DNA from: Mesorhizobium sp. M7A.F.Ca.US.006.01.1.1
GTDB lineage: Bacteria; Pseudomonadota; Alphaproteobacteria; Rhizobiales; Rhizobiaceae
DNA: 64,000 bases
NCBI RefSeq assembly: GCF_003997935.1
Contig: NZ_RZQL01000002.1
Coordinates: 33,382-97,381 of the forward strand
Reading direction: 5' to 3'
Both the position numbers and the translations under genes were made by a program. The notes beneath the pieces are model-generated. The model was not told the DNA's origin. It did not search any database and saw only the letters and a list, made by a program, of their open reading frames with translations. Below are positions 1 to 64,000 of the stretch, one piece after another. Position 1 is the first letter of the stretch. Every line of letters begins with the position of its first letter.

Positions 1-1304
1 GAAGCAAGGATCGAACGCGCGACCTTTATGCCCTCGACGAGGGTCAGTGCATCCTGTTCGTCACTGAAGAAGCGATGGTCTATGAGCATATTGCGGCGGG
101 TGCCGTCGCGCTGAAGTGTGATTTCGCCGACGCTGCCTGGTCTCAACACACAGGTGTGCACGGCATAGCCGTGGCCATATTCGACGAGCCGACCGCGATG
201 GCTGCGATAGCCCGGCACGAAGTGGAACTGAATGTCGGGTATGCTCCCGGCATACTTCGTCCTGGCAAAGCCGCCGGCTTCGACATAATTGGTCGTCAGC
301 ATGCCTTTGCGCCGGGCGAAATACTGGAACGGCGCCGCCAGCATCGCCGGAAGATTGGCGAGCGAAACGCCGAGCGTCTTGCGGCTGTTCGATCGCACCG
401 TGATCATGCCATCGACATGGTCGCGCAAGTTCTTGCCGACGCCCGGCAGGTTCGCGACCGGCTCAATCCCCGCTGCTTTCAGCTCCCCGGCCGGGCCGAC
501 GCCGGAAGCAAGCAGAATGCGCGGCGATCCGATCGCACCCGCGCTGAGGACCACCTCGGCTCGACATCCTAACCGTTGGGTTGCGCCGTCCCTGATCATG
601 TTGACGCCGGTGACGCGCCGGCGTTCAATCGCCAGATCAAGAACCTCGACGCCCGACAGTATCCGCAGATTCGAGCGGCCGAGAACCGGCCGGACAAAGG
701 CGCTGTAGGCCGAGAAGCGCTCGCCTCTGTCCTGGGTGACGTTGTAGATGCCGAGGCCGAGTTGGCCACCGGCATTGAAGTCGCGGTTCTCGGGCAGGCC
801 TACGCCTCTGCCTGCCTCAACCCACAGCCTGGATACGACGCTGGGATCGCGCGGATTGTCGACCAGCAATTCGCCGTCGAATCCATGATAGGCGGGGCTC
901 TGCAACAGGCAGTTCCGCTCCAATTTCTTGAAGACCGGCAGGACATCAGCATAGGACCACCCGGCGCAGCCAAGCGCTGCCCATTCGTCGTAGTCCTGCG
1001 CGGCGCCACGAATATAGACCATCGAGTTGATCGAACTCGACCCGCCGAGAAGCTTACCCCGGTTGACCGGTATGCGGCGGTTGTCGAGCAGCGGCTGCGG
1101 CACGCCCTTGTAGCCGTAGTCGAAGTTCGGATTGCCGTAGAGCGAGAGAATGCCGGCCGGCACGCGCACCCGGGTGCGGTCGTCGCTGCCGCCGGCCTCG
1201 ATCAGGCAGACGCGGTTGTCAGGATTGGCGCTCAGCCGGTTGGCCAGGACACAACCAGCCGAGCCCGCTCCGATGACGATATAGTCGAATTCCGCGATGC
1301 TCAT
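1..1304 (-). CDS. GMC-family oxidoreductase (choline dehydrogenase-like), C-terminus outside window
   Basis: This is a flavoprotein alcohol dehydrogenase of the glucose-methanol-choline family. It starts at the ATG at 1304 and reads without a stop to the window edge, giving about 434 residues of the usual 530-550. The N-terminus carries the FAD-binding motif IVIGAGSAGCVLANRL, and the GMC signature GKLLGGSSSINSMVYIRG lies near residue 85. The second signature, SAGAIGSPRILLASGVGP, is near residue 260. The catalytic His/Asn pair would be in the missing C-terminus. It lies 77 bases downstream of the ATPase gene of a nitrate/sulfonate-type importer on the same strand, so it probably oxidises an alcohol taken up by that system. 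The substrate is unknown. Confidence 0.9.
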   Translation of the reverse strand, partial: MSIAEFDYIVIGAGSAGCVLANRLSANPDNRVCLIEAGGSDDRTRVRVPAGILSLYGNPNFDYGYKGVPQPLLDNRRIPVNRGKLLGGSSSINSMVYIRGAAQDYDEWAALGCAGWSYADVLPVFKKLERNCLLQSPAYHGFDGELLVDNPRDPSVVSRLWVEAGRGVGLPENRDFNAGGQLGLGIYNVTQDRGERFSAYSAFVRPVLGRSNLRILSGVEVLDLAIERRRVTGVNMIRDGATQRLGCRAEVVLSAGAIGSPRILLASGVGPAGELKAAGIEPVANLPGVGKNLRDHVDGMITVRSNSRKTLGVSLANLPAMLAAPFQYFARRKGMLTTNYVEAGGFARTKYAGSIPDIQFHFVPGYRSHRGRLVEYGHGYAVHTCVLRPGSVGEITLQRDGTRRNMLIDHRFFSDEQDALTLVEGIKVARSILA

Positions 1305-44362: not shown

Positions 44363-45250
44363 ATGCGATCAATCATGTCCAGATTCAAGGCAAATTCCTT
44401 GCTGATGCTTGCTGCGGTCATTTGGGGAGTGGGCAATGTGTCCCATAAGACCATACTGGCCCACCTCGATCCCATGGCGGTTGTTTTCCTGACCAGCGTG
44501 ATCGCCGGACTGGTGACATTGCCATTCGCGGTGCGGGAGCGCGACCCCGTAACCAACACCGGCTGGTTTCCAAGTGTGGCGAGAGTGGTTCTGCTTTTTG
44601 CCCTCGGCTGTGTGGTCCAGCAAGCGTCCTATGTCAGCACGACGGTGACGAACTCGAGCCTTCTTATCAGCGCTTCCACTGTGATCACGCCGATCGCCGC
44701 ATGGCTGATCATGAGGGAGCGTCCAAGTGCACCGATCCTGTTCGTCGCTATTCTGACGGTCGTGGGATCGGCCCTCCTGGCGGGCGGCTTCAATGGTTCG
44801 GCAACCGCCGGCGACGCTTTCGCCATCCTGACGGCAATCTGTTTTGCAGTGTGGACGGTCGAGCTCGGGCGGCATGTGCAGGCACATGGTCATCCCTTCG
44901 CGACGGCGGCCGCGCAGTTCATCGGCACGGCCGTTGCCACGCTACCTTTCGCCCTGCAGGGCACAATGACATTTCAGGCAATTATGGCAGCATGGCCAGA
45001 ACTCATCATGCTTGGTGTGTTCTCGACCGCTGTCGGCTTTTGTCTGCAGACTTCTGCACAGCGCTACACCACTTCGTCCCATGCGGCGGTGATTTGCAGC
45101 GGAGAGGGTGTGTTCGCCGCCATTTCCGCCGCCGCTCTGCTTGGTGAACGGCTTTCGCCCGACGGGTTTCTGGGTGCGGGCGTCATTCTGTGCTGTGTGC
45201 TGTTCACCGCCGTCTCGGCGGGCCCGAAGCTCGATCCGTCAGTGCCATGA
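44363..45250 (+). CDS. EamA/DMT-family transporter
   Basis: Inner-membrane exporter-type protein of 295 residues with ten hydrophobic segments in two repeats, starting MSRFKANSLLMLAAVIWGVG. The C-terminal repeat shows GEGVFAAISAAALLGERLSP, a hallmark of EamA proteins. The start is uncertain: a TTG at 44339 is also open, but the ATG at 44363 (or 44375) is more likely. These transporters export amino acids, nucleotides or metabolites; the substrate is unknown. Confidence 0.85.
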   Translation: MRSIMSRFKANSLLMLAAVIWGVGNVSHKTILAHLDPMAVVFLTSVIAGLVTLPFAVRERDPVTNTGWFPSVARVVLLFALGCVVQQASYVSTTVTNSSLLISASTVITPIAAWLIMRERPSAPILFVAILTVVGSALLAGGFNGSATAGDAFAILTAICFAVWTVELGRHVQAHGHPFATAAAQFIGTAVATLPFALQGTMTFQAIMAAWPELIMLGVFSTAVGFCLQTSAQRYTTSSHAAVICSGEGVFAAISAAALLGERLSPDGFLGAGVILCCVLFTAVSAGPKLDPSVP

Positions 45251-45386
45251 TCGCTTCGGCAATGTCGCGCTGCTCTGGCAGCCGCGCCATTCAGACCACC
45301 GACTGGAAGTCTGTTTCTACTCCCGGATTCATGCCAAGCTACTCGTCTGGCCGCATTCATCCTTCTGGAAAACGAGGTCTACTTCG

Positions 45387-47051
45387 ATGCTCCATGGCGA
45401 AACGTCCTCCTTCGAAGCCGCTAACATACCGAACCGGTCAAACCAGAATTCAGACGACGGCCTCAACGACAAGCCGACCTTGCGAGGCATCAGGCTCTTC
45501 CCGTCCCTGGCGGACGTGCCGATCGCCTTGTTTGACGCAACCGAAGACGAGAGCGCCATCGACCGCACCAAGGCGGGCTTGTTGGACATCACGGCGGAAA
45601 TGGTCGGCCCGACCGATGGACTTGAAGGCAGTGATCTCAGCCCTACACCTGCCGGCTTTACCTATTTCGGTCAATTCGTGTTCCATGACATCGTCTTCAG
45701 CCAAATATTCGGATTGCCCAAGCCGACAGGCAAAACCCATCATTTGACGAACGCGTCCTCGCAAGGCCTTGACCTTTCGGGGCTCTATGGGAGGGGGCCC
45801 GTCGTCGACGCCCATCTCTACGATGTTCCAGATGGAGCGGATTTGTCGGCCTGCCGGTTTCCGATCGGCTTGCCTTGCATGAAAGACAGTATGCTTCCAG
45901 TCGATCGCAAGTCCGTGCAAGGCCGGGATTTGCCGCGCATCGACATGTCGGGCAAGTTCATCAGTGTCGAGGGCCGGCGGTCGCCCTATCGGCCGTTGGT
46001 GGCGGACCCTCGAAACGACGACAATCTCGTCCTGTCGCAACTGCTCTGCACACTCATGGGCATCCACAACAGGATCGTGGATCTGCTGCTTGGCAGCGGC
46101 ACCGACCCAGCCGAAGCTTACAAGGGTGCCAGGGTCTATCTGACCTCGGTTTACCGCACCGTGATCATCAACGACTATCTGAGAAAAGTTCTGGCTCCGG
46201 AAATATGGGACCATTTTTTCGCCAGTGACGATTTTCTTGGCGCCGGAGTCTCGGCCCTTGAGACCTTCAACGCGCTGCCTTTGGAATTCACGTTCGGTGC
46301 GTCGCGCTTTGCCCACGCCATGGTCCGGCAGTTCTATGTCGTGAACGACAGGTCGGTCGAAGAACCAGCCAATCTGCGCAAAATGCTGTCCTTTTCCAGC
46401 CTGCGCCCAGGTGGGGAGATTCCAATACCCGAGAACTGGATTGTCGACTGGAGCCGGTTTGCCTCAACCGACACTCCGTCGAAAGCTCAAAGTGCCCGGC
46501 GCATAGGGCCATTCCTGTCGAAAGAACTCACGATTGCCGGCCTGAGTGCGGAATTGAACGGCACAGTCCGGCCGGTTGCCTTCATGGATTGCTGGCGCTG
46601 TTACGACCTTGGTTTGCCATCCGGTCAGGATGTGGCCGGTGCGGTGAAGACCGCCCTTGGTGACAGTATCGATGTGCCGGTCCTGACGGGCAATGGCATG
46701 CTTCCCACGGCTGCCTGCGCCAAACGTTACGTCTACAACGCCGGCCGACTTCGGGCCGCTTTGCAACGGCACCCGGAGTTCCTGAGTCAAACACCTCTCT
46801 CCTACTATATCATCCAGGAGGCCTCCGTTCTTGGTAGTGACGGCAGCCATCTTGGCCCAGTTGGCTCCTATGTGGTGGCCGCAACGATCGCATCCGCACT
46901 GTTCAAGGCTGCCGATACAGATATCACCTCTCGCAGGCTCATTCCGGACGTGGAGCCGAAAACGCTGGCAGGACTGCTCGATCTCAATGATACTGCGAAG
47001 GTATCGGATGAAGTGCTTGGCGGCCTGATCGGCAGTCAGGGTTTTCAATAG
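45387..47051 (+). CDS. Animal-type haem peroxidase family protein
   Basis: Protein of 554 residues in the cyclooxygenase/peroxidase superfamily. The distal motif reads FGQFVFHDIVF (Gln96, His100), the proximal region GASRFAHAMVRQFY (His310), and the C-terminal domain continues to LLDLNDTAKVSDEVLGGLIG. In most family members the residue before the distal His is the Asp that is ester-linked to haem (QxxDHD); here it is Phe99. No signal peptide is seen. The open frame begins far upstream at 45108, but the ATG at 45387 (MLHGETSSFEAA) with GAGG upstream fits. The function may be peroxidase or a dioxygenase on lipids. Confidence 0.82.
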   Translation: MLHGETSSFEAANIPNRSNQNSDDGLNDKPTLRGIRLFPSLADVPIALFDATEDESAIDRTKAGLLDITAEMVGPTDGLEGSDLSPTPAGFTYFGQFVFHDIVFSQIFGLPKPTGKTHHLTNASSQGLDLSGLYGRGPVVDAHLYDVPDGADLSACRFPIGLPCMKDSMLPVDRKSVQGRDLPRIDMSGKFISVEGRRSPYRPLVADPRNDDNLVLSQLLCTLMGIHNRIVDLLLGSGTDPAEAYKGARVYLTSVYRTVIINDYLRKVLAPEIWDHFFASDDFLGAGVSALETFNALPLEFTFGASRFAHAMVRQFYVVNDRSVEEPANLRKMLSFSSLRPGGEIPIPENWIVDWSRFASTDTPSKAQSARRIGPFLSKELTIAGLSAELNGTVRPVAFMDCWRCYDLGLPSGQDVAGAVKTALGDSIDVPVLTGNGMLPTAACAKRYVYNAGRLRAALQRHPEFLSQTPLSYYIIQEASVLGSDGSHLGPVGSYVVAATIASALFKAADTDITSRRLIPDVEPKTLAGLLDLNDTAKVSDEVLGGLIGSQGFQ

Positions 47052-49901: not shown

Positions 49902-50666
49902 CTAGTCAGCCGTCCAGCCGCCATCGACCATTTGAGCCGTGCCGGTTACCAGGGCCGAGGCATCCGATGCGAGAAACAGGACAGGCCCCATAATGTCGGG
50001 TAGCTCGCCGACGCGGCCGAGCTTGATCTTATCTTCGATCCACTTCCTACGTTCGGGGTTCACAAATGTTCCCTCCGTAAGCGGCGTTCGAATGAATGTT
50101 GGACAGACAGTGTTGACCCGGATGCCGAACTTCCCCCATTCGATAGCCATCGCCTTAGTGAAGCCCTCGACGGCAAATTTGGAGGCGCAGTAAACAGCCC
50201 TGTCTTGCCCGCCCACATGGCCCATCTGGGACGACACATTGATTAGGGAGCCCGGTCTCCCCACCTCGATCAGACGGCCGGCCACGGCCTGGGTCAGGAA
50301 GAACGCGCCGCGGACATTGATCGCCATCACTGCATCATAGTCCTCAGGAGTGGCATCGAGCGCAGCGCTGTGCCGTGCGACGCCGGCGCTGTTGACCAGA
50401 ATGTCGAAGGGAAGCTCCGACGCCACCCATCTATGCACAGTGTGAACGTCAGCCACATCGATCGCTTTGTGTCGTGCGTCCCATCCCCTGTCTGCAAAGG
50501 CGCCGACCAAATTTACAAGCGCGCCTTCGGAACGGGCAGCTATCGTTACCGCTGCACCCGCTGCGGCCAGCGCGACTGCTGCCGCCATGCCAATGCCAGA
50601 GGTTGCACCTGTGACAAGGGCGCGTCGCCCGTCGAGCCGGAACGAGGGCGTCTGCGGCAAATCCAT
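49902..50666 (-). CDS. Short-chain dehydrogenase/reductase
   Basis: Oxidoreductase of 254 residues with TGATSGIGMAAAVAL, NSAGVARH, the active-site region SSQMGHVGGQDRAVYCASKF and the C-terminal GTAQMVDGGWTAD. GGAG precedes the ATG and the gene starts 6 bases after the HisD-like stop, so the two are co-expressed. It is the last gene of the 61640-49902 operon. In that context it could act on the keto or hydroxy product of the HisD-like enzyme. Confidence 0.92.
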   Translation of the reverse strand: MDLPQTPSFRLDGRRALVTGATSGIGMAAAVALAAAGAAVTIAARSEGALVNLVGAFADRGWDARHKAIDVADVHTVHRWVASELPFDILVNSAGVARHSAALDATPEDYDAVMAINVRGAFFLTQAVAGRLIEVGRPGSLINVSSQMGHVGGQDRAVYCASKFAVEGFTKAMAIEWGKFGIRVNTVCPTFIRTPLTEGTFVNPERRKWIEDKIKLGRVGELPDIMGPVLFLASDASALVTGTAQMVDGGWTAD

Positions 50667-50672
50667 TGTACT

Positions 50673-51983
50673 TTACTCCGCGGCGGTGCCGTATGGAACG
50701 TTTTGTCCTCCGTAACGCCGAACCCGTAGGTTGCACTGTTCTGCATGCGCGACGAAACCTTCCAGCATGCAGAGTCGCGACCCGTAGCGGCCGATAAGCG
50801 TAGCGGCTTCGTCGGTCACGATGCGCTGATAGCTGTGGGTCTTCAGGAATTTGCCAACCCAAAGCCCACCGGTGTAGCGGCCGGCCTTCTTTGTCGGCAA
50901 CGTGTGATTGGTACCGATCACCTTGTCGCCGTTCGCTACGTTTGTGCGGGGCCCAAGGAACAGAGCACCATAGCATTTCATGTTCTCGAGGAACCAATCA
51001 TCACGGTCGGTCATGACCTGCACGTGCTCGGAGGCGATGTCGTTGGCGACGGCCAGCATTTCATCATAGGTGTCGCATACGATCACCTCGCCATAGTTCT
51101 CCCAGCTGACGCGGGCGGTTTCGGCCGTCGGCAGGATCTGCAGAATGCGCTCGATTTCCTGCATCGTCTCTTCGGCCAATTTCTGGGAATTGGTGATGAG
51201 GACGCAGGGCGAGTTGTATCCATGCTCGGCCTGACCCAGCAGATCGGTCGCGCATATTTCGGCATCGACCGTCCGGTCGGCAATGACCATGGTTTCAGTC
51301 GGGCCTGCAAACAGGTCGATGCCGATGCGCCCGAACAATTGACGCTTGGCTTCCGCCACGAAGGCGTTGCCAGGACCGACGAGCATATGGACAGGTTTGA
51401 TGGTCTCAGTGCCGATCGCCAGCGCACCAATGGCCTGGATGCCACCGAGAACATAGATCTCATGGGCACCGCCGAAATGCATTGCAGCGATCACCCCGGG
51501 ATTGGGCTCACCCTTGAAGGGCGGCGTTGCCGCGACAATGCGCGGAACGCCTGCGACAGTTGCGGTCGCGACCGACATGTGCGCCGACGCAACCATGGGG
51601 AACTTCCCGCCAGGAACGTAACAGCCGACCGACTGAACCGGAATGTTCTTGTGGCCGAGAATGACGCCCGGAAGGGTCTCGACCTCGATATCGGTCATCG
51701 AAGCGCGCTGGGCCTTGGCGAATTTTGTGACCTGTTCCTGGGCGAAGCGTATATCCGCCATTTCCCGCGCCGAAAGCTTGCGCACCAGGCTCTCGATTTC
51801 TTCGTCTGACAGCCTGAAGCTCGCCGGTGTGTATTTGTCGAACTTCTCACTGAGCGCGCGGACCGCGGCATCGCCGTTTTTCTCGATCTCCCTCAGCGTA
51901 TCCTCGACCACAGAACGGACCTTGCTGTCTTCCTCGGCCCGCTCATTCTGCGACTTGCCGGTCTTGAGATATCTGACAGCCAT
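50673..51983 (-). CDS. HisD-family dehydrogenase, sulfopropanediol-dehydrogenase (HpsN)-like
   Basis: NAD-dependent zinc dehydrogenase of 436 residues in the histidinol dehydrogenase family, with [42 protein letters not shown] and [16 protein letters not shown]. The catalytic His region is ASEHVQVMT. It is not true HisD: there are no his genes nearby, and its pattern ([21 protein letters not shown]) resembles the HpsN group that oxidises dihydroxypropanesulfonate. GGAG lies 8 bases before the ATG. It probably oxidises a diol or amino alcohol released in this operon twice over to the acid. Confidence 0.85.
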
Positions 51984-52125: not shown

Positions 52126-53646
52126 TCAAAACAGCGCCGCGTAAAGAATCTTGTCCTGTGTCGCCTCAGCGGCCGAGAATTCCTCGACAACCTGTCCGCG
52201 CCGCGCCACCAGGATGCGGTCGCCAAGCGACATGACCTCCGGGATGTATGAGGAGATGACCAGGACAGCGACGCCGCTGTCGGCAAGATCGCGAATGAAC
52301 TTATGGATTTCGGGAATTGCGCCGACATCGACGCCCTGTGTCGGCTCGTCGAAGATGACCACCTTCGGATTCTGGACCAGCGACTTTGCGATCACGACCT
52401 TTTGCTGGTTGCCACCGGACAGTTCGACCACGCGCGCGTCACCCGATATAGCCCGGATGGACAGTCTCTTCGTCCACTCCTTTGACATCTTCTGCGCCAT
52501 GTCACGTTCGACGAGCGGCTTTCGACCCGCATTCGACGCAAGGAACCCGGAATAGATGTTGTCTGTGATCGACATTGTGTCGAAAAAGCCGTTCTGCTTG
52601 CGGTCTTCGGTGATGTAAGCAATGCCGTCATGCACCGCCTGGGGCGGCACACGATATCGGATTAGCTTGTCGCCAAGCAGGATTCGCCCACCATTGATGT
52701 ACCGGCGCTTCAACGCGCCCGAAATGATCTTGGCGATCTCTGTCCGCCCCGAGCCCACCAGACCGAAGAGCGCGGTGACTTCCCCCTTAGTGATCGAAAA
52801 CGACATGTTCCTGACCACACTTCCCATCGTAACGTTCTCGACCGTCAGAACCCTTTCGGCTGGCAACTTCTCCTCGGTGCTCTGGACCTGGTTCCTCACC
52901 GGCACGAAGCCGGTCTCTCGGCCAACCATGAGGCGGACAATCTCATCGCGCGTGAACCCGCTTGTCGGCCCCGTTTTGATCAGCTCGCCGTCACGCATGA
53001 TGGTGACGCGGTCGGAGATCTTCTCCACTTCCTCAAGGGCGTGAGAAATGTAGATAATGCCGGTACCGCGCCGGCGCAGATCGCGAACGAGGTTGAAGAA
53101 GTGCTTCTTCTCGCTCGGAGTCAAAGTGGCGGTCGGCTCGTCGAAGATAATTATGCGCGCCTTGTGATAGACAGCGCGCGCGATCTCAACCATCTGGCGC
53201 TGCGCGGCGCTGAGACTGCCTCCGAGCGCAGTCGGATCGACGTTGAAGTTCATTGACTGCAGGTGTGCCTGGATCTCCTTGTTGAGCGTTCTCAGGCGAA
53301 TGAACCGGCTCTCGACCCCAAGCTGGATATTCTGAGCCACCGACATGGTCGGCACCAGGCTGGTCTCTTGATAGACCATGGCCACACCGGCATCCAACGC
53401 GTCTTTAGGATTGGTCAGTTCGACCTTCGCGCCGAAGAGTTCGATACTGCCTTCGGACGGTCGCACCGCACCTGCAACCGCCTTGGATAGCGTCGATTTT
53501 CCGGCTCCGTTTTCGCCGACCAGCGCGTGGATTTCGCCGGACTTCAGGTCGAAATTGACCGACTTTATGGCGTAGTTGGAGCCATAGATCTTGGAAAGGT
53601 CGCGACAGCGCAGAATGACTGACCCAATTTCGGGAGCGCTCGTCAT
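52126..53646 (-). CDS. ABC transporter tandem ATPase, ribose (RbsA) type
   Basis: ATP-binding protein of 506 residues with two ATPase domains. The first has Walker A GENGAGKST near 46-54, signature LSAAQRQMVEIARAVY and Walker B IIIFDEPTATLT. The second has the usual degenerate Walker A (LVGSGRTE near 294), LSGGNQQKVVIAKSLV and VIFDEPTQGVDVGA. It energises the two permeases encoded upstream. Its C-terminus closely resembles that of the ATPase at 63687 (SSYIPEVMSLGDR against SSYLPEIMSLSDR), so the two come from one duplicated transporter lineage. The start overlaps the stop of the SMP-30-like gene. Confidence 0.93.
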   Translation of the reverse strand: MTSAPEIGSVILRCRDLSKIYGSNYAIKSVNFDLKSGEIHALVGENGAGKSTLSKAVAGAVRPSEGSIELFGAKVELTNPKDALDAGVAMVYQETSLVPTMSVAQNIQLGVESRFIRLRTLNKEIQAHLQSMNFNVDPTALGGSLSAAQRQMVEIARAVYHKARIIIFDEPTATLTPSEKKHFFNLVRDLRRRGTGIIYISHALEEVEKISDRVTIMRDGELIKTGPTSGFTRDEIVRLMVGRETGFVPVRNQVQSTEEKLPAERVLTVENVTMGSVVRNMSFSITKGEVTALFGLVGSGRTEIAKIISGALKRRYINGGRILLGDKLIRYRVPPQAVHDGIAYITEDRKQNGFFDTMSITDNIYSGFLASNAGRKPLVERDMAQKMSKEWTKRLSIRAISGDARVVELSGGNQQKVVIAKSLVQNPKVVIFDEPTQGVDVGAIPEIHKFIRDLADSGVAVLVISSYIPEVMSLGDRILVARRGQVVEEFSAAEATQDKILYAALF

Positions 53647-54767
53647 TTGCTCAAAACCTCCTCATCGGCATGAACCAGCTTGCCGTTTCCGGCAGAGAGA
53701 ATGAAAAGCGAATGCTTGTTCGGTGACGCGATGCCGGTGATGCCATGACGCTTTCCGTCCGCACGGCTGTGCATGCTCTTTACTGGCTGGAAATGACGGT
53801 CGAGCTTGGCTACCAACCCATACGAGTAAGGCGGAGAGAACGGCTTCTTCATGCCGACCTGCTTGATCGCACCAAGCTGAAGGGCCTCGCGATAGTCGTC
53901 ACTGGTTGCCATGGCCGGAGCCACCCAATATCTGGGAGGTACCGTCTCAAGCATTTCCTTCAGGAATTCTTTCTCGCGCAGGACAAACTCGATTAGCGGA
54001 TTCCTCAGCGCGAACAGGGCCAGCCAATATCCGCCGCCTTCGATTGGTTGGATTCGCGAGGGATATCCCGGTAGGTTTCCAAGGACCACCTTTGGCCCGG
54101 TCCTTTCAGAGCCCGAAACATCGACCGCCAGCAGTCTGTGCTTCCAGCTTTCACTGACCATCACCGAGCTGTCGTCGATCTCGCAAACACCGAAAGGCCA
54201 GGCGAGCTTGTCGCGCAGCGTCTTGACCGCTCCCGTCGCCCAGTAGAGTTTCAGAAGTCTACCCGTTTCGCCCGAACGCATGAGGTCTTCCACCCATTGC
54301 TCGGGACCGAACTTTGTCGAACCGTCGGTAAGGTACACATTTCCATCGCGACCGATCGCGATGGAGGTGATGCATTTCATCGGCCCAGTGTCAGAGTTTA
54401 CGAGCGTGCTGCGCGACCCGTCGGGCGCGATAACTTCGATCCCGTTGCCGGCGATCGCCACGATCAGACTGCCGTCCGGATGGCGACACATGGCGCCCGC
54501 ACGGCCTCCTACCTTATGGACCGTACTTCTAACCGGGCAGAACCAGCTTCCGCCGATCCGATAGATCCTGTCCCCAGCCGAAACCCACGGCTTGCCGTAC
54601 TTGTCCACGATGACATCGTCGGGATGCTCGAGAGTGCGGTCGACCATGGCGCAGTCGCCGATGAGTTCGTTCTGCTTCCACGGGCCATCAAGGGTGCGGA
54701 TTTCCGGCTCGTCCTTCTCGCCCATTATATGCGTGCGGAAGATCTCCGGCAGATTGAAGATGCTCAT
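53643..54767 (-). CDS. SMP-30/gluconolactonase-like beta-propeller protein
   Basis: Protein of 374 residues with repeats typical of six-bladed lactonase/strictosidine-synthase propellers, for example HPDDVIVDKYGKPWVSAGDR, CRHPDGSLIVAI, SIAIGRDGNVYLTDGS and KVVLGNLPGYPSRIQP. No signal peptide is seen, so it should act in the cytoplasm. The ATG at 54767 overlaps the previous stop (ATGA) and follows GGGAGG; the longer frame to 54980 lies inside the fusion gene. It is related to the propeller half of the upstream fusion protein. A lactone or ester hydrolase role is likely. Confidence 0.85.
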   Translation of the reverse strand: MSIFNLPEIFRTHIMGEKDEPEIRTLDGPWKQNELIGDCAMVDRTLEHPDDVIVDKYGKPWVSAGDRIYRIGGSWFCPVRSTVHKVGGRAGAMCRHPDGSLIVAIAGNGIEVIAPDGSRSTLVNSDTGPMKCITSIAIGRDGNVYLTDGSTKFGPEQWVEDLMRSGETGRLLKLYWATGAVKTLRDKLAWPFGVCEIDDSSVMVSESWKHRLLAVDVSGSERTGPKVVLGNLPGYPSRIQPIEGGGYWLALFALRNPLIEFVLREKEFLKEMLETVPPRYWVAPAMATSDDYREALQLGAIKQVGMKKPFSPPYSYGLVAKLDRHFQPVKSMHSRADGKRHGITGIASPNKHSLFILSAGNGKLVHADEEVLSK

Positions 54768-56935
54768 TCCATGCCTCCCCAGCGCTCGGAATGCGCGGTC
54801 CAGCTCTTGTTGGCCGATGGCAGATCCACGCGCCCGATGCGCACGTTGAAAATGCCGCCGACATAGAGGTGGCCACGATCCTCGACCGCCGACGTGATTG
54901 TCGAATAAGCCTGTTTCGTCCCGCCCAGATCCCAAAGCGTCTCGACTGGTTGACCATCCTTGGACAGCTTGACGATGCATCCCGCGTTAAAGTTGGGTAG
55001 CAGCCAGTTGTCGACCGGCAGCCTGCGGGTCATCCGCTTGCGGAAGCTGGGCATGCGCATCGCGATGTCGGATACTTTCGTCCGCATTGCGACCATCGCA
55101 ACCCAGAAGCCACCATCGGAACTGGGATTGATGTTGTCGGGATAACCCGGCAGGTCGTCTACAACGACCTCCTTGCGACCGGCTTTTGGGCCGGCGAAAT
55201 AATAGCGCGAGATCCGGCACAGCCAGGTCTCACTGTATAGGAAAGACTGTCCGCCGCGCTCGATGCATATTCCGCCGGGGTGTACGATGCCATTGAGCGT
55301 CGTACGCGTCTTCCCAGTCTTCGGGTCGTAGGAGAGGATGCGGCCGTTGGGCCGGGCTTCAATGGAGTCAAGGAGCCACTCGTCCATGTTGTAGCGCGTA
55401 GACCCTTCGGTAAAGTAGATCATTCCGTCCTCGGCGATATCCAGATCATCGAGCATGAGCAGTCTGGAATCGTCCTTGACGCGACCGACCGTTCTCGGTG
55501 TCTCGTCGGCGAGGCGCTTCATCGATGCGTCCGGCGCAACGGACATTAGCCCGATGCCCGCCACGCAGACGATCAGATTGCCGCCCTTGTCGAAAGCGAG
55601 CCCACGAACTTGGCCACCCGTGCGGCAGAAAACCTCGCGATCGTGCAGCGCGGGGCCCGAATAGCGCATGATCAGTCCGGTGCTGGTACCAGTATAGACG
55701 CGCTGTTGGTCGTCGATCGCGACATCTTCGGGCGCCACCAGCCTTAGCTGCCGGTCGTCCATGATGAAGTCTTCCTGCCCGGTGAAGTCGCGGCCGTGGA
55801 AACCGACTTTCATGATGCCCATGAGCGCGTTGTTCGGCCGGAAGACGGTCTCCTTACGAAAGTCAGTCTCCACCTCGTTCGAAAACCTGACGGCAGTCGG
55901 CACCGTGTAGAAAAGGTCGACGACCTTCCAGACGTGTTTCAGCCATTTGACGTCGGCCGCCACCGCGAGAAGAAGGAGCAAGCCCAGGAAGAACGAACTG
56001 CCGCCACCCGTCACCCCGACACGCACCAGCGTATTCGTAACAATCATGATCGTGACGATGCCCAGCGCGATGCGGCCGGTCGAACCCTTTCCGCCGGAAA
56101 GGCTGACACCGCCCAGCACGACCGCCGTGAGGGCAAGGATTTCCCAGCCGACGCCGGTATCTGAACCGGCACTGTTTAGACGTGCGGCATAGAAGACTGC
56201 GCCAACTGCGCATAGCATGCCCGATACGACGTAGGACACGAATACGACGGTGCGGATCGGCACACCTGCATGGCGCGCCGCGCGGCGTCCGGCACCGACC
56301 GATGTCAGCCGCCAGCCATATTTGGAGCGGGTGATCAGCAAGTGCCCCGCGATGCAGGTCCCGGCAAAGACAAGGATATTGAACGGAATACCTAGGACAC
56401 TTCCATAGCCGATGTAGTCCCACACAGGGTCGACATTGCCCGATGAGGCGATGGCGACGCCATACTTTTCGAGAAGGAGCCGAACCGTGGCAAAACCGAT
56501 GATCAGGGTCGCCATCGTCGTCAGGAACGAGCGTGCCCTCAGGATGCCTACCAGAAAGCCGTTTACGGCTCCAAGCACAGCGCCTGCGACGAGACAAACT
56601 CCTACGATCGCCAACGAATTGAGGCCTGTGATATAAAACAGATACAGTGCGAGAAGGTTGATGAGAGCGAACAGCGCGCCCACACTGAGATCAACGCCTC
56701 CGCCTATCAAGACGATGCCCATGGCCAAGCCCACGAATGCGAACTCGCCGAACTGCCGGAGCGTCGTGGCCAGATTGTCGGGCTCCAGATAGCCCGGGAT
56801 AATGCTAACCGTGATCGCGGCGACAACGACGAAAACGACCCATGGAATGAGTGTCTCCATCCAGCGTTTGCTGAGAACCTCAGCAACGAAGATGCGCAGG
56901 GACCATTTGCTTTGCCCGTTCATGGCGTCCAACAT
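54764..56935 (-). CDS. ABC permease fused to an SMP-30-like beta-propeller
   Basis: Single protein of 723 residues in one unbroken frame. Residues 1-335 are an RbsC-type permease with the family motif LIGGGVDLSVGALFA near 76-90 and the conserved LSGGKGS near 279. Residues 336-390 form a polar linker. Residues 395-723 are a lactonase/strictosidine-synthase-like propeller (LVAPEDVAIDDQQRVYTGTS, GLAFDKGGNLIVCVAGIGLM, DDLDIAEDGMIYFTEGSTRY, DDLPGYPDNINPSSDGGFW). RbsC-like permeases have a cytoplasmic C-terminus, so the propeller would sit at the transporter exit inside the cell. AGGA precedes the ATG at 56935; a second ATG is at 56923. Confidence 0.93.
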   Translation of the reverse strand: MLDAMNGQSKWSLRIFVAEVLSKRWMETLIPWVVFVVVAAITVSIIPGYLEPDNLATTLRQFGEFAFVGLAMGIVLIGGGVDLSVGALFALINLLALYLFYITGLNSLAIVGVCLVAGAVLGAVNGFLVGILRARSFLTTMATLIIGFATVRLLLEKYGVAIASSGNVDPVWDYIGYGSVLGIPFNILVFAGTCIAGHLLITRSKYGWRLTSVGAGRRAARHAGVPIRTVVFVSYVVSGMLCAVGAVFYAARLNSAGSDTGVGWEILALTAVVLGGVSLSGGKGSTGRIALGIVTIMIVTNTLVRVGVTGGGSSFFLGLLLLLAVAADVKWLKHVWKVVDLFYTVPTAVRFSNEVETDFRKETVFRPNNALMGIMKVGFHGRDFTGQEDFIMDDRQLRLVAPEDVAIDDQQRVYTGTSTGLIMRYSGPALHDREVFCRTGGQVRGLAFDKGGNLIVCVAGIGLMSVAPDASMKRLADETPRTVGRVKDDSRLLMLDDLDIAEDGMIYFTEGSTRYNMDEWLLDSIEARPNGRILSYDPKTGKTRTTLNGIVHPGGICIERGGQSFLYSETWLCRISRYYFAGPKAGRKEVVVDDLPGYPDNINPSSDGGFWVAMVAMRTKVSDIAMRMPSFRKRMTRRLPVDNWLLPNFNAGCIVKLSKDGQPVETLWDLGGTKQAYSTITSAVEDRGHLYVGGIFNVRIGRVDLPSANKSWTAHSERWGGME

Positions 56936-57021: not shown

Positions 57022-58035
57022 TTACTGGTTGGGCAGGTCGTAGCAGAGCGAACGAGAATAGTTCTCCTTCGTCCAAACGCTGACCGGAGTGTATACGGCC
57101 ATCTCAACTGCCCCCGGCTTCTGACCCGACTGGAGGATAAGGCTAATGGTGGTCATCAGATCCTGTCCCTGCTGAAGGGTATGCGTGTCCCAATATCTGT
57201 CGAACATGCCGGCGTCCCAGCTGTCGCAAGCCATGCGCTGTCCGCCGCCGGTCGTGTACAGGAGGACTTTGCCCTGCTGACCAGCAGCCTTGATGGCCTG
57301 TGCCGCGCCAAGCGCCATAACATCGAAGAAGTCGTAGACGCCGCACAAGTCTGGATTCTGCTGCAGGGCCGTCTGGGTGATGTCGCGGGACTTGTTGGCG
57401 TCGTAATCGCCGGCCTGGTTCGAGACGATCTTGATCTCCGGATGCTTCTCGAAGATTTCCATCGCCCCGCCAAGCTCCTGCAGGCTGGCCGCATTGGTGA
57501 GCTCGCCTTGCACGATCGAAATCTTGCCGCTCTTCCCTTTCTGGGGCGAGCAGGCCTCGACCAGGTCCGCAGCAATCTCACGCCCCACGCGCCGGTAGTC
57601 GGCTCCGACATAGGCGTCGGATATCTGGTTCGAGACCAGGTTGAGCTGGACGACGTAGATGCCGGCCTGCTGTGCCTGACGGATCTGGCGCGCCAAAAGC
57701 TGCACGTTCAGATTATGGATCACCAGGACGTCCGGCTTCTCCTGGATCAGAGCCTGGACGGCCTGCGACTGAGCGGTCGTGCTCCAGTTAGGATCTCGGG
57801 TAACGAACTTCATTCCAAGACGCGCGGCCTCTTCCTTCATGACGTGCGCCCAGCCGTCAGTCAAGAACATGCCATAGGACATTGGAACGAAAGCGATCGT
57901 CTTGCCTTGCAGTGCGGTCGTGAACTTGTTGAATAACCGCACGTCGGGGGTCTCGTCCGCACGGGCACCAACCGCCATTGTCATCATCGATATTGCCGTG
58001 ACGATACTTCCTATGGATTTCAAACTGAATTTCAT
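57022..58035 (-). CDS. ABC transporter substrate-binding protein, ribose (RbsB) type
   Basis: Periplasmic binding protein of 337 residues. It has a signal peptide (MKFSLKSIGSIVTAISMMTM, cleavage near ARA about residue 26) and a Peripla_BP_4 pattern (TIAFVPMSYGMFLTDGWAHV, VLVIHNLNVQLLARQIRQAQ). The ATG at 58035 follows GGGAGGTGATC. Cysteines at CSPQKGK, LCGVYDFF and the C-terminus may matter for the fold. It lies between the two permease genes of the operon. Ligand unknown; the enzymes suggest a lactone-, ester- or amide-containing compound. Confidence 0.92.
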   Translation of the reverse strand: MKFSLKSIGSIVTAISMMTMAVGARADETPDVRLFNKFTTALQGKTIAFVPMSYGMFLTDGWAHVMKEEAARLGMKFVTRDPNWSTTAQSQAVQALIQEKPDVLVIHNLNVQLLARQIRQAQQAGIYVVQLNLVSNQISDAYVGADYRRVGREIAADLVEACSPQKGKSGKISIVQGELTNAASLQELGGAMEIFEKHPEIKIVSNQAGDYDANKSRDITQTALQQNPDLCGVYDFFDVMALGAAQAIKAAGQQGKVLLYTTGGGQRMACDSWDAGMFDRYWDTHTLQQGQDLMTTISLILQSGQKPGAVEMAVYTPVSVWTKENYSRSLCYDLPNQ

Positions 58036-58080: not shown

Positions 58081-59058
58081 CTACATCGTCTCTCCCTGGC
58101 GGGCTGTTTCCTCATCGAAAGGATGTAGAAATCCATCGATCAATATCGCAGCCAAGAGTACGAAACCTTTGACGATATTTTGTACGTCGTTGTTGATATT
58201 CATGATGGTCATGCCGTTAAGGATCGTGCCGATCAGGAGTGTTCCGATAATCACGCTCAGCATGCTTCCTCGGCCGCCAACCAGACTTATCCCACCTAAA
58301 ATGACGACAAGGATGACGTCGAAGACCATGGTGCCCTGCGCGACATTGACGTTCACGCTCGAAACGTTGCCGAGCATGATGATGCCAGCAACGAACGCCG
58401 TTCCGCCGCATAACGTGTAGGAAATCAGCGTGATCGGCCGCACGGGCAGACCGGCAAGCTTTGCGGCTTCAGGATTGGCGCCCATCGCATAAAGGATGCG
58501 GCCAACTCTGGTCGTCGTCAGCAAAATCGCGCCGAGGACGAGCACAAGGAAAAAGCTCCACACGGCAAGCGGGAGTCCAAGAAAATTGGTGAGGCCAAGC
58601 GCGTTGATGATCCGGCCTGATTCTGGCAAATACTGGATGTCATTCGACAGCAAGAATAGTCGCGATCCACCGGTGACGAGAATGCCGGTAGCAAGAGTTG
58701 CAAACAAGGCAGGCACCTCGACGAAGGCAACCAGCCAGCCGTTTACAAACCCCGTCAGGAGCGCCATGCACAACCCCGTGGCGATGGCGACTTGTGGCGA
58801 ATGGCCATCCCGCAGAAGCTGAACCACCAGACCGACGCTAACGACCATGTTGGCCACGATGCTCAGATCAAGTCCGCGGCCGATCACGACGACTGCAAGA
58901 CCGACCCCCAAGATGCCCAAGATCGCGACCCGCATGAACAAATTCGAGATATTCTCGATCGTCAGAAAGCCATTGAGGAACACCGAAAGAAGCACAACTA
59001 TTACGATCGTGCAGGAAAGGACGATGATCTCTTGCCCCTTGAATGCAGCCCTTAACAT
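58081..59058 (-). CDS. ABC transporter permease, ribose (RbsC) type
   Basis: Inner-membrane protein of 325 residues with eight to ten hydrophobic segments, the motif VIGRGLDLSIVANMVVSVGL near residues 55-75 and LGGISLVGGRGS near 250. The ATG at 59058 with GGGAAA upstream is chosen; the open frame to 59274 lies partly in the amidohydrolase gene. It is the second permease, partner of the permease-propeller fusion. Confidence 0.92.
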   Translation of the reverse strand: MLRAAFKGQEIIVLSCTIVIVVLLSVFLNGFLTIENISNLFMRVAILGILGVGLAVVVIGRGLDLSIVANMVVSVGLVVQLLRDGHSPQVAIATGLCMALLTGFVNGWLVAFVEVPALFATLATGILVTGGSRLFLLSNDIQYLPESGRIINALGLTNFLGLPLAVWSFFLVLVLGAILLTTTRVGRILYAMGANPEAAKLAGLPVRPITLISYTLCGGTAFVAGIIMLGNVSSVNVNVAQGTMVFDVILVVILGGISLVGGRGSMLSVIIGTLLIGTILNGMTIMNINNDVQNIVKGFVLLAAILIDGFLHPFDEETARQGETM

Positions 59059-59129: not shown

Positions 59130-60605
59130 TTATTTTACCGTCGCATCCTCGCGCAGCTGCTCGTCCGCATTGTAGTTGAACATGTTCTGGAAAAGCGGAC
59201 CGATCTTGTCGATTGGCACATGCCGCGACTGGCTCATCATCTTCTCTGACGACGCCACGATCTTCTTGCGCCAATGCTCCCAGTCGACGCCCACGAGCTT
59301 GCCATGGCGCTTGACGATGTCACCGCACACGAGAACGGTGTGGACATCATGGATGTTTGCGTTGAAGACGATGGCGCCATAGGGATCGATCATCGGCGTC
59401 ATATTGATCGTATGGCAGTCGAACAGAGTTATGTCGGCATCCTTGCCGGGCGTCAGCGAGCCGGTGACGTCATCCAGGCCAACAGCCTTCGCGCCGTCAA
59501 TCGTGGCCAGGCGAACGACGTCGCTTGCCTTGAGCGGAATGTCGCCAGGCATGTATCCGCGCTTGAAATCCACAGAATGTTCGACGGCACGCTGGACCTG
59601 AAGATTCAGCCGCATCTGCGCGAAAAGGTCGCCGGCGATGTTGGAGACGATATCGACACCGAGCGATGTCTTGCCGCCCAGCTTCATGATGCGCTGGGAA
59701 ACAAGCGGAAAGCCCATGCCCATGCCAAGCTCCGTATCCGGCGAACTGGCGCAGGCGCAGCCATGGTCTACCAGGATTTGCAACTCTTCATCGGTAAAGC
59801 CGGCCGCGTGCACGAACAGACATTTGGGGCTCAGGAAGCCGTCTGCCTGCATCAGCTTGACCAGACGGACATCCTTCTCGAGCTGCCCCATGCCCGCGTG
59901 AAGACTGTAGATGATCGGGTCGAGCTCGCGAGCCCTGCTGAACTCCGCGCGCGATTCCGGATATGGGCGGAACTCGAGTTCGTTTGGTGCGATGCCGAAC
60001 CTTATCTTGCCGGCGGATTCTGAGAAATACTTGAGCTTGACGCGTTCCGCGTCTTTGTAGCGCCACTGTTCCACGTCGCCGAACATATCGCCGACCAGCA
60101 GCGGCAAATCGATTGGCTCGCCTATTTTGTATTTCGGATTCTTGAAGAACCCGTAGCAGTATATGCCACGGACGCCCGATGCCTGGAACGCTTCGACGCC
60201 AGCATCGGCATGCTCTGGCGAGTTGATGATGTGGGAGTGATCGACGCAGGATGTGACACCAGCATTCAGCGCCTCAAGCAATCCGACATAGTTGCCGATA
60301 TAAACATCTTCCGGTTCGTAAAAGGCCGAGAAGCGGGCGCGCATGTTCACGAAATACTGACTGAGCGTCCAGTCGGTCGCGGTCGTTCGCAACTGCGTCT
60401 GCCAGCAGTGCCTGTGGGCGTCGAACAGGCCCGGCGTCACAATCATGCCCTTTGCGTCGATGACCTCGACGTCGTCGGCCACAATGTGCGGTCTAACCTC
60501 AGCTATCTTGCCATCGATAACCAGCACGTCGGCGTCATCGAAGTCTCCAATATCCGGGTCCATGGTAAGAACGAAACCGTTCTTGATCAGAATTCTGCCT
60601 GACAT
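59130..60605 (-). CDS. Metal-dependent amidohydrolase, cytosine-deaminase/TRZ-ATZ type
   Basis: Hydrolase of 491 residues with the TIM-barrel amidohydrolase pattern: IDAKGMIVTPGLFDAHRHCW (HxH metal ligands near 66-68), LHAGMG, LFVHAAG, SSPDTELGMG and the ending VTGSLTPGKDADITLFD. Such enzymes deaminate or dechlorinate heteroaromatic rings or cleave amidine and guanidine groups, working in the cytoplasm. It is the second gene of the operon after the cyclase-family enzyme. The C-terminus (about 60 residues after the core) is hydrophilic and unrecognised. Confidence 0.9.
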   Translation of the reverse strand: MSGRILIKNGFVLTMDPDIGDFDDADVLVIDGKIAEVRPHIVADDVEVIDAKGMIVTPGLFDAHRHCWQTQLRTTATDWTLSQYFVNMRARFSAFYEPEDVYIGNYVGLLEALNAGVTSCVDHSHIINSPEHADAGVEAFQASGVRGIYCYGFFKNPKYKIGEPIDLPLLVGDMFGDVEQWRYKDAERVKLKYFSESAGKIRFGIAPNELEFRPYPESRAEFSRARELDPIIYSLHAGMGQLEKDVRLVKLMQADGFLSPKCLFVHAAGFTDEELQILVDHGCACASSPDTELGMGMGFPLVSQRIMKLGGKTSLGVDIVSNIAGDLFAQMRLNLQVQRAVEHSVDFKRGYMPGDIPLKASDVVRLATIDGAKAVGLDDVTGSLTPGKDADITLFDCHTINMTPMIDPYGAIVFNANIHDVHTVLVCGDIVKRHGKLVGVDWEHWRKKIVASSEKMMSQSRHVPIDKIGPLFQNMFNYNADEQLREDATVK

Positions 60606-60668: not shown

Positions 60669-61640
60669 CTACTTGATGGCTTGCGGATTGATTGGCGAGC
60701 CCGTGCCACCGGTGATGACCAGGGGCGGCGCGCAAAAGAAGAATTCGTAGACCCCGTCTCCCGCGCAGTCCTCGGCGAGTTCCTTGAGATAGAACATCTC
60801 CCCCATCGTGAGGCCAATGGCTGGGATGACCACCCAGTGCCAGGGTTGATTGATGTCCGACGTGCTTTCGTTAGGACGAACCTCGCATCCCCAGGTGTCG
60901 GCACAGATTGCAGCGACATCTTTGTCACGCAGCCATTGCGCGGTTGAAAACGACAAGCCAGGCGCGTCGCCGCCAGCATAGCCGCCCCATTGGGCTTCCT
61001 TGAGGCAGCGCTCCATTTGACCGGTACGGAAGATGACGAAATCGCCCTTCCTGATCTCAACGCCCTGCTTCGCAGCCGCGCCATCCAGGTCCTCAGGCGT
61101 GATGGCCTCGCCATCCTTCAGAAAGTCTACACCCTTGTAGCGCGCGATATCGAGGAGCACGCCCCGTCCCACCATGCGATTCTTTGTGTGCTCAATCCCA
61201 AGCTGATGCACGCCGCCGGAATCGACCGAGGAGGCCGGATATCCATTGTACATCTTGTCGCCCAGGAAGATGTGTCCCAACGCATCCCAATGGGTCGCAG
61301 ACTGCACGGGCATGTTGATGGCGTCATCGGAGTAGCGCAGGCCAACCGTATCGTCCTGATTGCCGGCAAGCGCGTCGGTGCCGGTTGCTAGCATCGTATG
61401 TATCGGGTTCCAGCGTCCACCGAACAAGCCGTTCTGCGGGCCTTTATTATTCAGCGGAATCCCCAGCGCAAAGACCTTGCCTTTCGTGACGAGGCTGGCA
61501 GCCGAGACGATATCGGCAGGTTCGACCGTGTTGAGCGTGCCAATTTGGTCGTCTTCGCCCCAGCGCCCCCAATTTGTCAGTCTGTCGGCCGTTTCGACCA
61601 CATGCTGCCTGGTAATCCTTCCGGTACCGCCTTGTGACAT
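60669..61640 (-). CDS. Cyclase-family hydrolase (kynurenine formamidase-like)
   Basis: Metal-dependent hydrolase of 323 residues with the signature ATHWDALGHIF (HxDxxxH-type metal site near residues 117-124), NLTNWGRWGEDDQIGTLN-like N-terminal sequence (residues 21-38) and GDFVIFRTGQME. Its relatives include kynurenine formamidase and isatin hydrolase, which open amide or lactam bonds. GGAGGAGGAATAA precedes the ATG. It is the first gene of the long operon facing the TetR regulator, so it may act early on the imported compound. Confidence 0.88.
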   Translation of the reverse strand: MSQGGTGRITRQHVVETADRLTNWGRWGEDDQIGTLNTVEPADIVSAASLVTKGKVFALGIPLNNKGPQNGLFGGRWNPIHTMLATGTDALAGNQDDTVGLRYSDDAINMPVQSATHWDALGHIFLGDKMYNGYPASSVDSGGVHQLGIEHTKNRMVGRGVLLDIARYKGVDFLKDGEAITPEDLDGAAAKQGVEIRKGDFVIFRTGQMERCLKEAQWGGYAGGDAPGLSFSTAQWLRDKDVAAICADTWGCEVRPNESTSDINQPWHWVVIPAIGLTMGEMFYLKELAEDCAGDGVYEFFFCAPPLVITGGTGSPINPQAIK

Positions 61641-63686: not shown

Positions 63687-64000
63687 CTAGTTGATGGCCG
63701 CGTACATGACCTTCTCTTCAGTCGCCTCCAAGGCGGAGAACTCCTCAACCACCTTGCCCTTACGGAACACGAGCAGACGGTCCGACAGGGACATGATCTC
63801 CGGCAGGTAGGACGAGATCACCACGACAGCCTTGCCCTCATCGGCAAGCTGGTTCAGATATTTGTGGATCTCGGCGATGGCGCCGACGTCGACACCACGG
63901 GTCGGTTCGTCGAAAATGATCAAGTCCGGTTGTTGGATCATCGATTTGGCGATGACCACTTTCTGCTGGTTGCCGCCCGATAGTTCGATCGCCTTGGCCT
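63687..64000 (-). CDS. ABC transporter tandem ATPase, ribose (RbsA) type, N-terminus outside window
   Basis: Only the last 104 residues are visible. They contain the second-domain signature LSGGNQQKVVIAKSMI, Walker B LIIFDEPTRGVDVGA, and the end VVEEFSALEATEEKVMYAAI. The frame runs off the window edge with no start. It is closely similar to the end of the ATPase at 52126 and would be part of another ribose-type importer to the right. Confidence 0.92.
   Translation of the reverse strand, partial: AKAIELSGGNQQKVVIAKSMIQQPDLIIFDEPTRGVDVGAIAEIHKYLNQLADEGKAVVVISSYLPEIMSLSDRLLVFRKGKVVEEFSALEATEEKVMYAAIN

Follow-up and report, generated by a model that had tools for sequence, protein, structure and literature searches.

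In this study, we analyzed a 64,000-nucleotide stretch of Mesorhizobium sp. M7A.F.Ca.US.006.01.1.1 (contig NZ_RZQL01000002.1, positions 33,382 to 97,381), hereafter the window, and focused on one gene on its minus strand. The results confirmed that this gene encodes an RbsC-type permease and a strictosidine-synthase-like (SSL) propeller in a single frame of 723 residues. The gene lies in a five-gene cassette of an ATP-binding cassette (ABC) importer. With slightly less than even confidence, we interpret its product as an importer permease to which a cytoplasmic hydrolase is tethered. As the cargo leaves the channel, this enzyme would cleave an ester or lactone within it, a step that may have been lost in the window's own copy. 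For the fused family at large, the residues at the putative active site make an importer with a built-in hydrolase likely.

A permease and a propeller in one reading frame

The joined protein had been proposed in a sequence-only reading of the window, and it was borne out by the open frame, by Pfam matches to both domains, and by full-length paralogues and homologues. Its parts are as follows.

54764..56935, minus strand: fused permease-propeller protein, 723 amino acids
55901..56935, minus strand: permease domain, RbsC-type, residues 1-345, with a BtuC-like fold over residues 14-328
54767..55852, minus strand: propeller domain, SSL-type, residues about 362-723

The propeller scored 65.1 bits for Str_synth and 42.3 bits for SGL in Pfam. 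Because the Str_synth score is the higher, we filed the domain under SSL, although it also passes the curated cut-off (26.3) of SGL, the SMP-30 gluconolactonase family. It has both the Str_synth/SSL_N sequence and the six-bladed propeller fold of the N6P SSL subgroup, and its fold was closest to TGW6, followed by strictosidine synthase, DFPase and the lactonase RPA3624. Strictosidine synthase proper catalyzes a metal-free condensation of tryptamine and secologanin with Glu309 as the catalytic residue; the sequence match ended short of the position of this Glu. In the model of the permease domain, residues 14..328 matched BtuC 1..324, which is the fold of a type II (BtuC-fold) importer. A sequence search for solved permease relatives returned none for the second permease of the cassette, and a search with a profile built on the fused protein yielded propellers only.

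Occurrence of the fusion

The permease-propeller fusion is a stable architecture. The same genome contains three further full-length copies at 42-43% identity. A protein database search with the fused protein returned 1027 proteins at E <= 0.001, and each of the 120 homologues listed covered at least 92% of the query and carried both the permease and the Str_synth domain. In the class sample, the fused type was found in the own genome and in 6 of 288 others, with all 8 matches outside the own genome in frames of 713-739 codons. In the phylum sample, which shares two genomes with the class sample, it was found in the own genome and in 10 of 397 others, and all 16 matches lay in frames of 707-840 codons. 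Within the genus, 91 of 146 genomes had a match, and 89 of these had a listed frame of at least 691 codons; the exceptions were G672, whose sole frame has 449 codons and lies where a contig begins (C347:381), and G784, whose match is outside the listing. One further short frame (G769:C1062:6) also begins at a contig end, in a genome that has long frames besides. No split version of the gene was present among the matches listed, and the short frames listed begin at contig ends. A frameshift or misassembly as the source of the fusion was ruled out, since the full-length frame recurs in the own-genome paralogues and in the database, class, phylum and genus searches. Matches of 34-41% identity in frames of 358-412 codons were free-standing SSL proteins.

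Named holders of the fusion include Bradyrhizobium, Mesorhizobium, Rhizobium and Hoeflea, together with metagenome-assembled Rhodobacteraceae, Variovorax and Comamonadaceae. Neither domain is new, and sequence databases already contain the joined protein, which they label generically, where they name it, as 'ribose transport system permease protein', 'ABC transporter permease' or 'SMP-30/gluconolactonase/LRE family protein'. A search of the open-access literature found no paper describing the arrangement. In PMC6710368, table rows list a permease and, separately from it, a Bradyrhizobium 'SMP-30/gluconolactonase/LRE family protein' (blr6437), and these rows do not mention a fusion.

The metal-ligand site of the fused propeller

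Characterized N6P hydrolases have four metal ligands in common, and most SSL proteins appear to retain them, as stated in an excerpt of PMC4215206; the corresponding positions in TGW6 are given in part of PMC10958001 as Glu59, Asn167, Asn226 and Asn272. We aligned the window's protein with 53 of the 120 listed homologues, picked to thin near-copies (54 rows in total), and read the equivalent residues.

55727..55729, minus strand: E403, ligand position 1, kept; maps to TGW6 Glu59; Glu in 54/54 rows
55448..55450, minus strand: D496, ligand position 2, kept with Asp for Asn; maps to TGW6 Asn167; Asp in 44/54
55274..55276, minus strand: G554, ligand position 3, lost; maps to TGW6 Asn226; Asn in 40/54, Gly in 4/54 (the window's clade)
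55136..55138, minus strand: D600, ligand position 4, kept; aligns with TGW6 Asp271, beside Asn272; Asp in 44/54
54905..54907, minus strand: Y677; the 40/54 rows with the full ligand set have His here and the remaining 14 have Tyr

N601 aligns with TGW6 Asn272; we take D600 to be the fourth ligand by analogy with DFPase Asp229. The complete set E-D-N-D, together with His677 and Leu444, was present in 40 of the 54 rows, which may share one ancestor, so that the counts are not independent events. The remaining 14 rows had Tyr677 and Arg444 with altered ligands, four with E-D-G-D and ten with E403 only. The pairs Leu444/His677 and Arg444/Tyr677 sort the 54 rows without exception, and this split parallels that of the metal ligands.

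We then read a 23-locus set. It is made up of the window, three other loci of its genome and 19 loci selected from 80 because they had matches to both domains. The fused propeller was complete in 22 loci (17 with Asp and 5 with Asn at position 496), the exception being the window. All 22 further loci, three of which are the own-genome copies again, had the complete set with His677. Thus the fused family at large carries the four ligands of a metal-dependent N6P hydrolase, whereas the window's protein has three of the four (E403, D496 and D600, with G554 in the remaining place). Among the sequences read, an intact metal site is the rule, and the window's copy is an exception that belongs to a minority subfamily. 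Because G554 replaces a metal ligand and Y677 replaces the co-varying His, catalysis by the window's own copy is doubtful. The enzyme that had been proposed for this propeller is supported by the hydrolase-type ligands of most family members and weakened by the two substitutions in the very copy for which it was proposed. An SSL protein with three of the four ligands was still hydrolytically active, according to the excerpt of PMC4215206.

The loci of the ten E403-only homologues were sought with the P0026 propeller; none was found in 297 genomes of the order at E 1e-120, and at E 1e-95 the same propeller returned only the window and one 47% match from 289 genomes of the class.

Organization of the cassette

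The other four genes of the cassette are as follows.

58081..59058, minus strand: second RbsC-type permease, likely 325 amino acids from MLRAAF; the open reading frame extends mechanically to 59274
57022..58035, minus strand: periplasmic binding protein, Peripla_BP_4, 337 amino acids
53643..54767, minus strand: separate propeller, 374 amino acids, without the metal-ligand set; its start codon overlaps the stop of the fused gene (ATGA)
52126..53646, minus strand: RbsA-type tandem ATPase, two stretches of Pfam ABC_tran; its start overlaps the stop of the separate propeller (ATGA)

The order second permease, binding protein, fused protein, separate propeller and ATPase, all on one strand, was the same in the window, in the three own-genome loci and in 19/19 named fused loci. 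All five genes were present in 16 of the 19 named loci, the other three being truncated where their contigs stop, and one own-genome locus has an ATPase that extends past the end of the contig. The second permease, which had been suggested as the partner of the fused one, was found in all cassettes that are not truncated by a contig end. With a BPD_transp_2 permease, a tandem-domain ATPase and a Peripla_BP_4 binding protein in one operon, the cassette belongs to the RbsABC/CUT2 type. Neither the permeases nor the binding protein reached the NCBIfam equivalog cut-off of a named sugar transporter (for example, 114 of the 398 bits needed for the ribose permease), and the ATPase reached none among the best 25 of 189 families.

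The separate propeller was present in 23/23 loci, and in 21/23 a start codon in its frame shares an ATGA or GTGA with the stop of the fused gene. The metal-ligand set was absent from this protein in all 23 loci, indicating that it is probably not a second enzyme of the N6P metal-hydrolase type. With the set in 0/23 separate propellers, we rejected both this protein as the actual enzyme of the pair and a swap of roles between the two propellers in the window. In a tree of 53 propellers, which carried a long-branch warning that includes the window's separate propeller, the 23 fused domains formed one clade (99/96), the 23 separate propellers another (100/100) and 7 free-standing SSL proteins a third (100/98).

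Several further observations concern copies of the cassette. At one locus (L017, from 9409 onward, plus strand), the frame of the separate propeller is open for 1258 codons and spans the fused gene in another frame. A fifth fused-propeller copy (L012, G000:C232, 6218-6826, minus strand) is an apparently broken remnant with an in-frame stop and a small internal gap; it lies near a contig end, no separate propeller gene was found after it, and it was excluded from the 23-locus set. At 63687-63998 (minus strand), the window contains a C-terminal fragment of another RbsA-type ATPase, which shares 70% identity with that of the cassette. Contig C222 stops at the same point as the window, so that a further cassette may be located upstream of this fragment.

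Side of the membrane

The fused propeller is predicted to be cytoplasmic, on the exit side of the channel, because of a positive-inside charge pattern and a BtuC-like fold that ends at residue about 328. Averaged over the 54 aligned rows, the count of lysine plus arginine was 5.4 for the N-terminus, 5.0 for the coupling loop and 4.8 for the stretch that follows the last helix, as against 0.0-1.7 in the other inter-helix loops; the later linker (350-396) had 3.5 of these residues versus 5.5 acidic ones. Residue 328 of the model aligns with the last residue of BtuC, a protein with cytoplasmic termini, and in Escherichia coli RbsC both ends are inside. The cytoplasmic C-terminus of the earlier reading is thus supported as a prediction. 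For the separate propeller, no N-terminal 19-residue window exceeded 1.55 on the Kyte-Doolittle scale in the 23 loci, a dedicated signal or membrane predictor not having been run. Among the free-standing SSL relatives, inspection by eye revealed a hydrophobic N-terminal anchor in 6/7 and a lipoprotein-like signal in 1/7 (L123).

Proposed mechanism and the case for a non-catalytic module

To our knowledge, typical ABC importers pass their cargo to free cytoplasmic enzymes. Here, the second permease and the fused protein are predicted to pair as two channel halves over the tandem ATPase, with one tethered propeller per transporter on the cytoplasmic side. In most members, this propeller would bind a divalent metal through E403, D/N496, N554 and D600, and a bond would be hydrolysed by water or by histidine-assisted attack. 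The ligand-less separate propeller, presumably made by coupled translation and supplied in matching amounts, may pack as a non-catalytic partner on the fused propeller or on the plain permease. In the window's subfamily, with three ligands and Tyr for His, the domain may be a weak hydrolase or may have been converted to binding. A more specific proposal, somewhat unlikely in our view, is a whole class of importers that would import and cut the cargo in one machine. One channel half would carry the metal hydrolase and the other a dead twin matched to it by translation, and the window's subfamily would have converted its dead enzyme into a cargo sensor.

Several results weigh against the tethered hydrolase. 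The window's propeller itself has Gly at the third ligand and Tyr at the conserved His position. TGW6, the nearest solved relative, is an indole-3-acetic acid (IAA)-glucose hydrolase in which no Ca2+ was observed, according to part of PMC10958001, and the next-nearest fold, strictosidine synthase, is no hydrolase, so that neither fold nor ligand count can decide activity. Mean pairwise identity, taken over 190 pairs from 20 loci, was highest for the ATPase (66.6%) and the fused propeller (65.2%), followed by the second permease (54.1%), the permease part of the fused protein (52.9%), the binding protein (47.6%) and the separate propeller (44.2%); L019 and L021, whose contigs lack the second permease, were left out. 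The fused propeller is thus conserved nearly as well as the ATPase while the binding protein diverges, unlike what is expected of a cargo-specific enzyme. The neighbouring genes are diverse, and no class counted among them was enriched over 22 Pseudomonadota permease-only loci (smallest p 0.19). Finally, judging from their N-termini, the anchors and signal of the free-standing SSL proteins would face outwards, opposite to the side proposed for the fused propeller.

The strongest rival explanation is a non-catalytic cytoplasmic module, in which the two propellers, fused and separate, would cap the permease pair, sensing cargo or a metabolite and gating or stabilizing the pair, the metal site being a relic, structural or used for sensing. 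We consider this cap credible, while leaning against it. It would account for a window copy that lacks one ligand and the His, for the 10/54 homologues that retain only E403, and for the near ATPase-level conservation of the fused domain although the binding protein and neighbours vary. It would also fit a separate propeller that is devoid of ligands in every locus, yet always present and nearly always joined to the fused gene by overlapping codons. A purely structural role, however, needs none of the hydrolase ligands, and the whole set with its co-varying His is kept in 40/54 aligned rows and in 22/22 further loci.

Neighbouring genes and cargo

The neighbours of the cassette in the window are an HpsN-like dehydrogenase, two short-chain dehydrogenases/reductases (SDRs), an amidohydrolase and a cyclase-family protein, including the following.

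50673..51983, minus strand: HisD-family dehydrogenase, a closer match to HpsN (sulfopropanediol 3-dehydrogenase) than to HisD; outside the conserved cassette
49902..50666, minus strand: SDR oxidoreductase (Pfam)
59130..60605, minus strand: amidohydrolase, PRK08204-type (domain/family match)
60669..61640, minus strand: Cyclase-family (PF04199) protein (Pfam)

The HisD-family protein matched 8v35 at E 1.6e-112 and the best histidinol dehydrogenase at 2.9e-75. It suggests a sulfonated or other small polyol cargo, but it occurs in 1/23 loci only. Across the loci, the neighbours include aldehyde and alcohol dehydrogenases, acyl-coenzyme A (CoA) ligases, a CoA-transferase, LysR regulators and an aminotransferase.

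We counted eight neighbour classes, namely aldehyde dehydrogenase (ALDH), iron- and zinc-type alcohol dehydrogenases (Fe-ADH, Zn-ADH), acyl-CoA ligase, CoA-transferase, SDR, HisD-like protein and amidohydrolase, in the 23 fused and 60 permease-only loci, leaving out L034, which matched the propeller. The 22 Pseudomonadota controls were picked by title from these 60, most of which come from other phyla. ALDH was found in 6/23 fused loci versus 3/22 Pseudomonadota controls (p=0.46). Against all 60 controls, uncorrected values were p=0.012 for ALDH (6/23 vs 3/60), p=0.006 for acyl-CoA ligase (5/23 vs 1/60) and p=0.019 for CoA-transferase; we gave this enrichment no weight because most of the controls come from other phyla. 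Since the neighbours are varied and not enriched over the Pseudomonadota controls, gene context does not settle the cargo, and the coupling of transport to hydrolysis of a lactone that had been proposed is weakened.

These counts also bear on an improbable alternative, in which the propeller is an active hydrolase on a cytoplasmic intermediate common to many pathways (e.g., a lactone from neighbouring dehydrogenases) and the permease is a mere membrane anchor. The fused propeller is highly conserved between cassettes whose binding proteins and enzymes differ, which would fit it, as would the ALDH and acyl-CoA ligase values against all 60 controls, but nothing was enriched over the Pseudomonadota controls, and the constant partner across the 23 loci is the permease and no single enzyme. 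A periplasmic propeller that acts on the cargo ahead of its uptake, in the manner of the free-standing SSL proteins with their membrane anchors, is very improbable, given the lysine- and arginine-rich stretch past the last helix, the BtuC-like end point, and a separate propeller that has no signal or membrane segment and whose gene overlaps the fused one.

Two other features of the window are recorded here. An 847-residue protein at 14521-17064 (plus strand) consists of an RbsC-type permease (41-304) fused with a tandem ABC ATPase, a different kind of fusion in the same transporter type. A 647-residue protein at 45108-47051 (plus strand) matched animal haem peroxidase (E 4.1e-9).

Comparison with known systems

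Like RbsABC/CUT2 sugar importers, the cassette holds all four transporter parts, including two different permeases, and some CUT2 systems likewise pair two different permeases (LsrC/LsrD and YtfT/YjfF). It differs from them in the C-terminal propeller on one permease and in the accompanying separate propeller gene. From the N6P SSL subgroup and its kin (TGW6, DFPase, the RPA3624 lactonase and Drp35), the fused protein differs by its attachment to an ABC permease, and the window's copy differs further by the Gly at one of the four ligands. The free-standing bacterial SSL proteins (32-41% identity) are likewise apparently membrane-tethered and kept the ligands in 6/6 read, whereas they are tethered by a single N-terminal anchor or a lipoprotein-like signal. 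Animal APMAP is a comparable anchored SSL protein. No relative of the cassette transporter genes was found within 7.5-16 kb around each of the 7 free-standing SSL genes. A Deinococcus Cu/Zn superoxide dismutase is naturally fused to a beta-propeller lactonase, as described in an excerpt of PMC12362111; there, too, a lactonase-type propeller is joined to another protein, the partner being superoxide dismutase and not a transporter.

If the tethered-hydrolase reading is true, a conserved class of importers whose channel bears a hydrolase-type domain, accompanied by a degenerate twin in 23/23 loci, would allow direct tests of how transport is coupled to the first catabolic step. A very common cassette, matched in 91/146 genomes of the genus and with a fused protein that now stands under generic database names, would gain a role as well.

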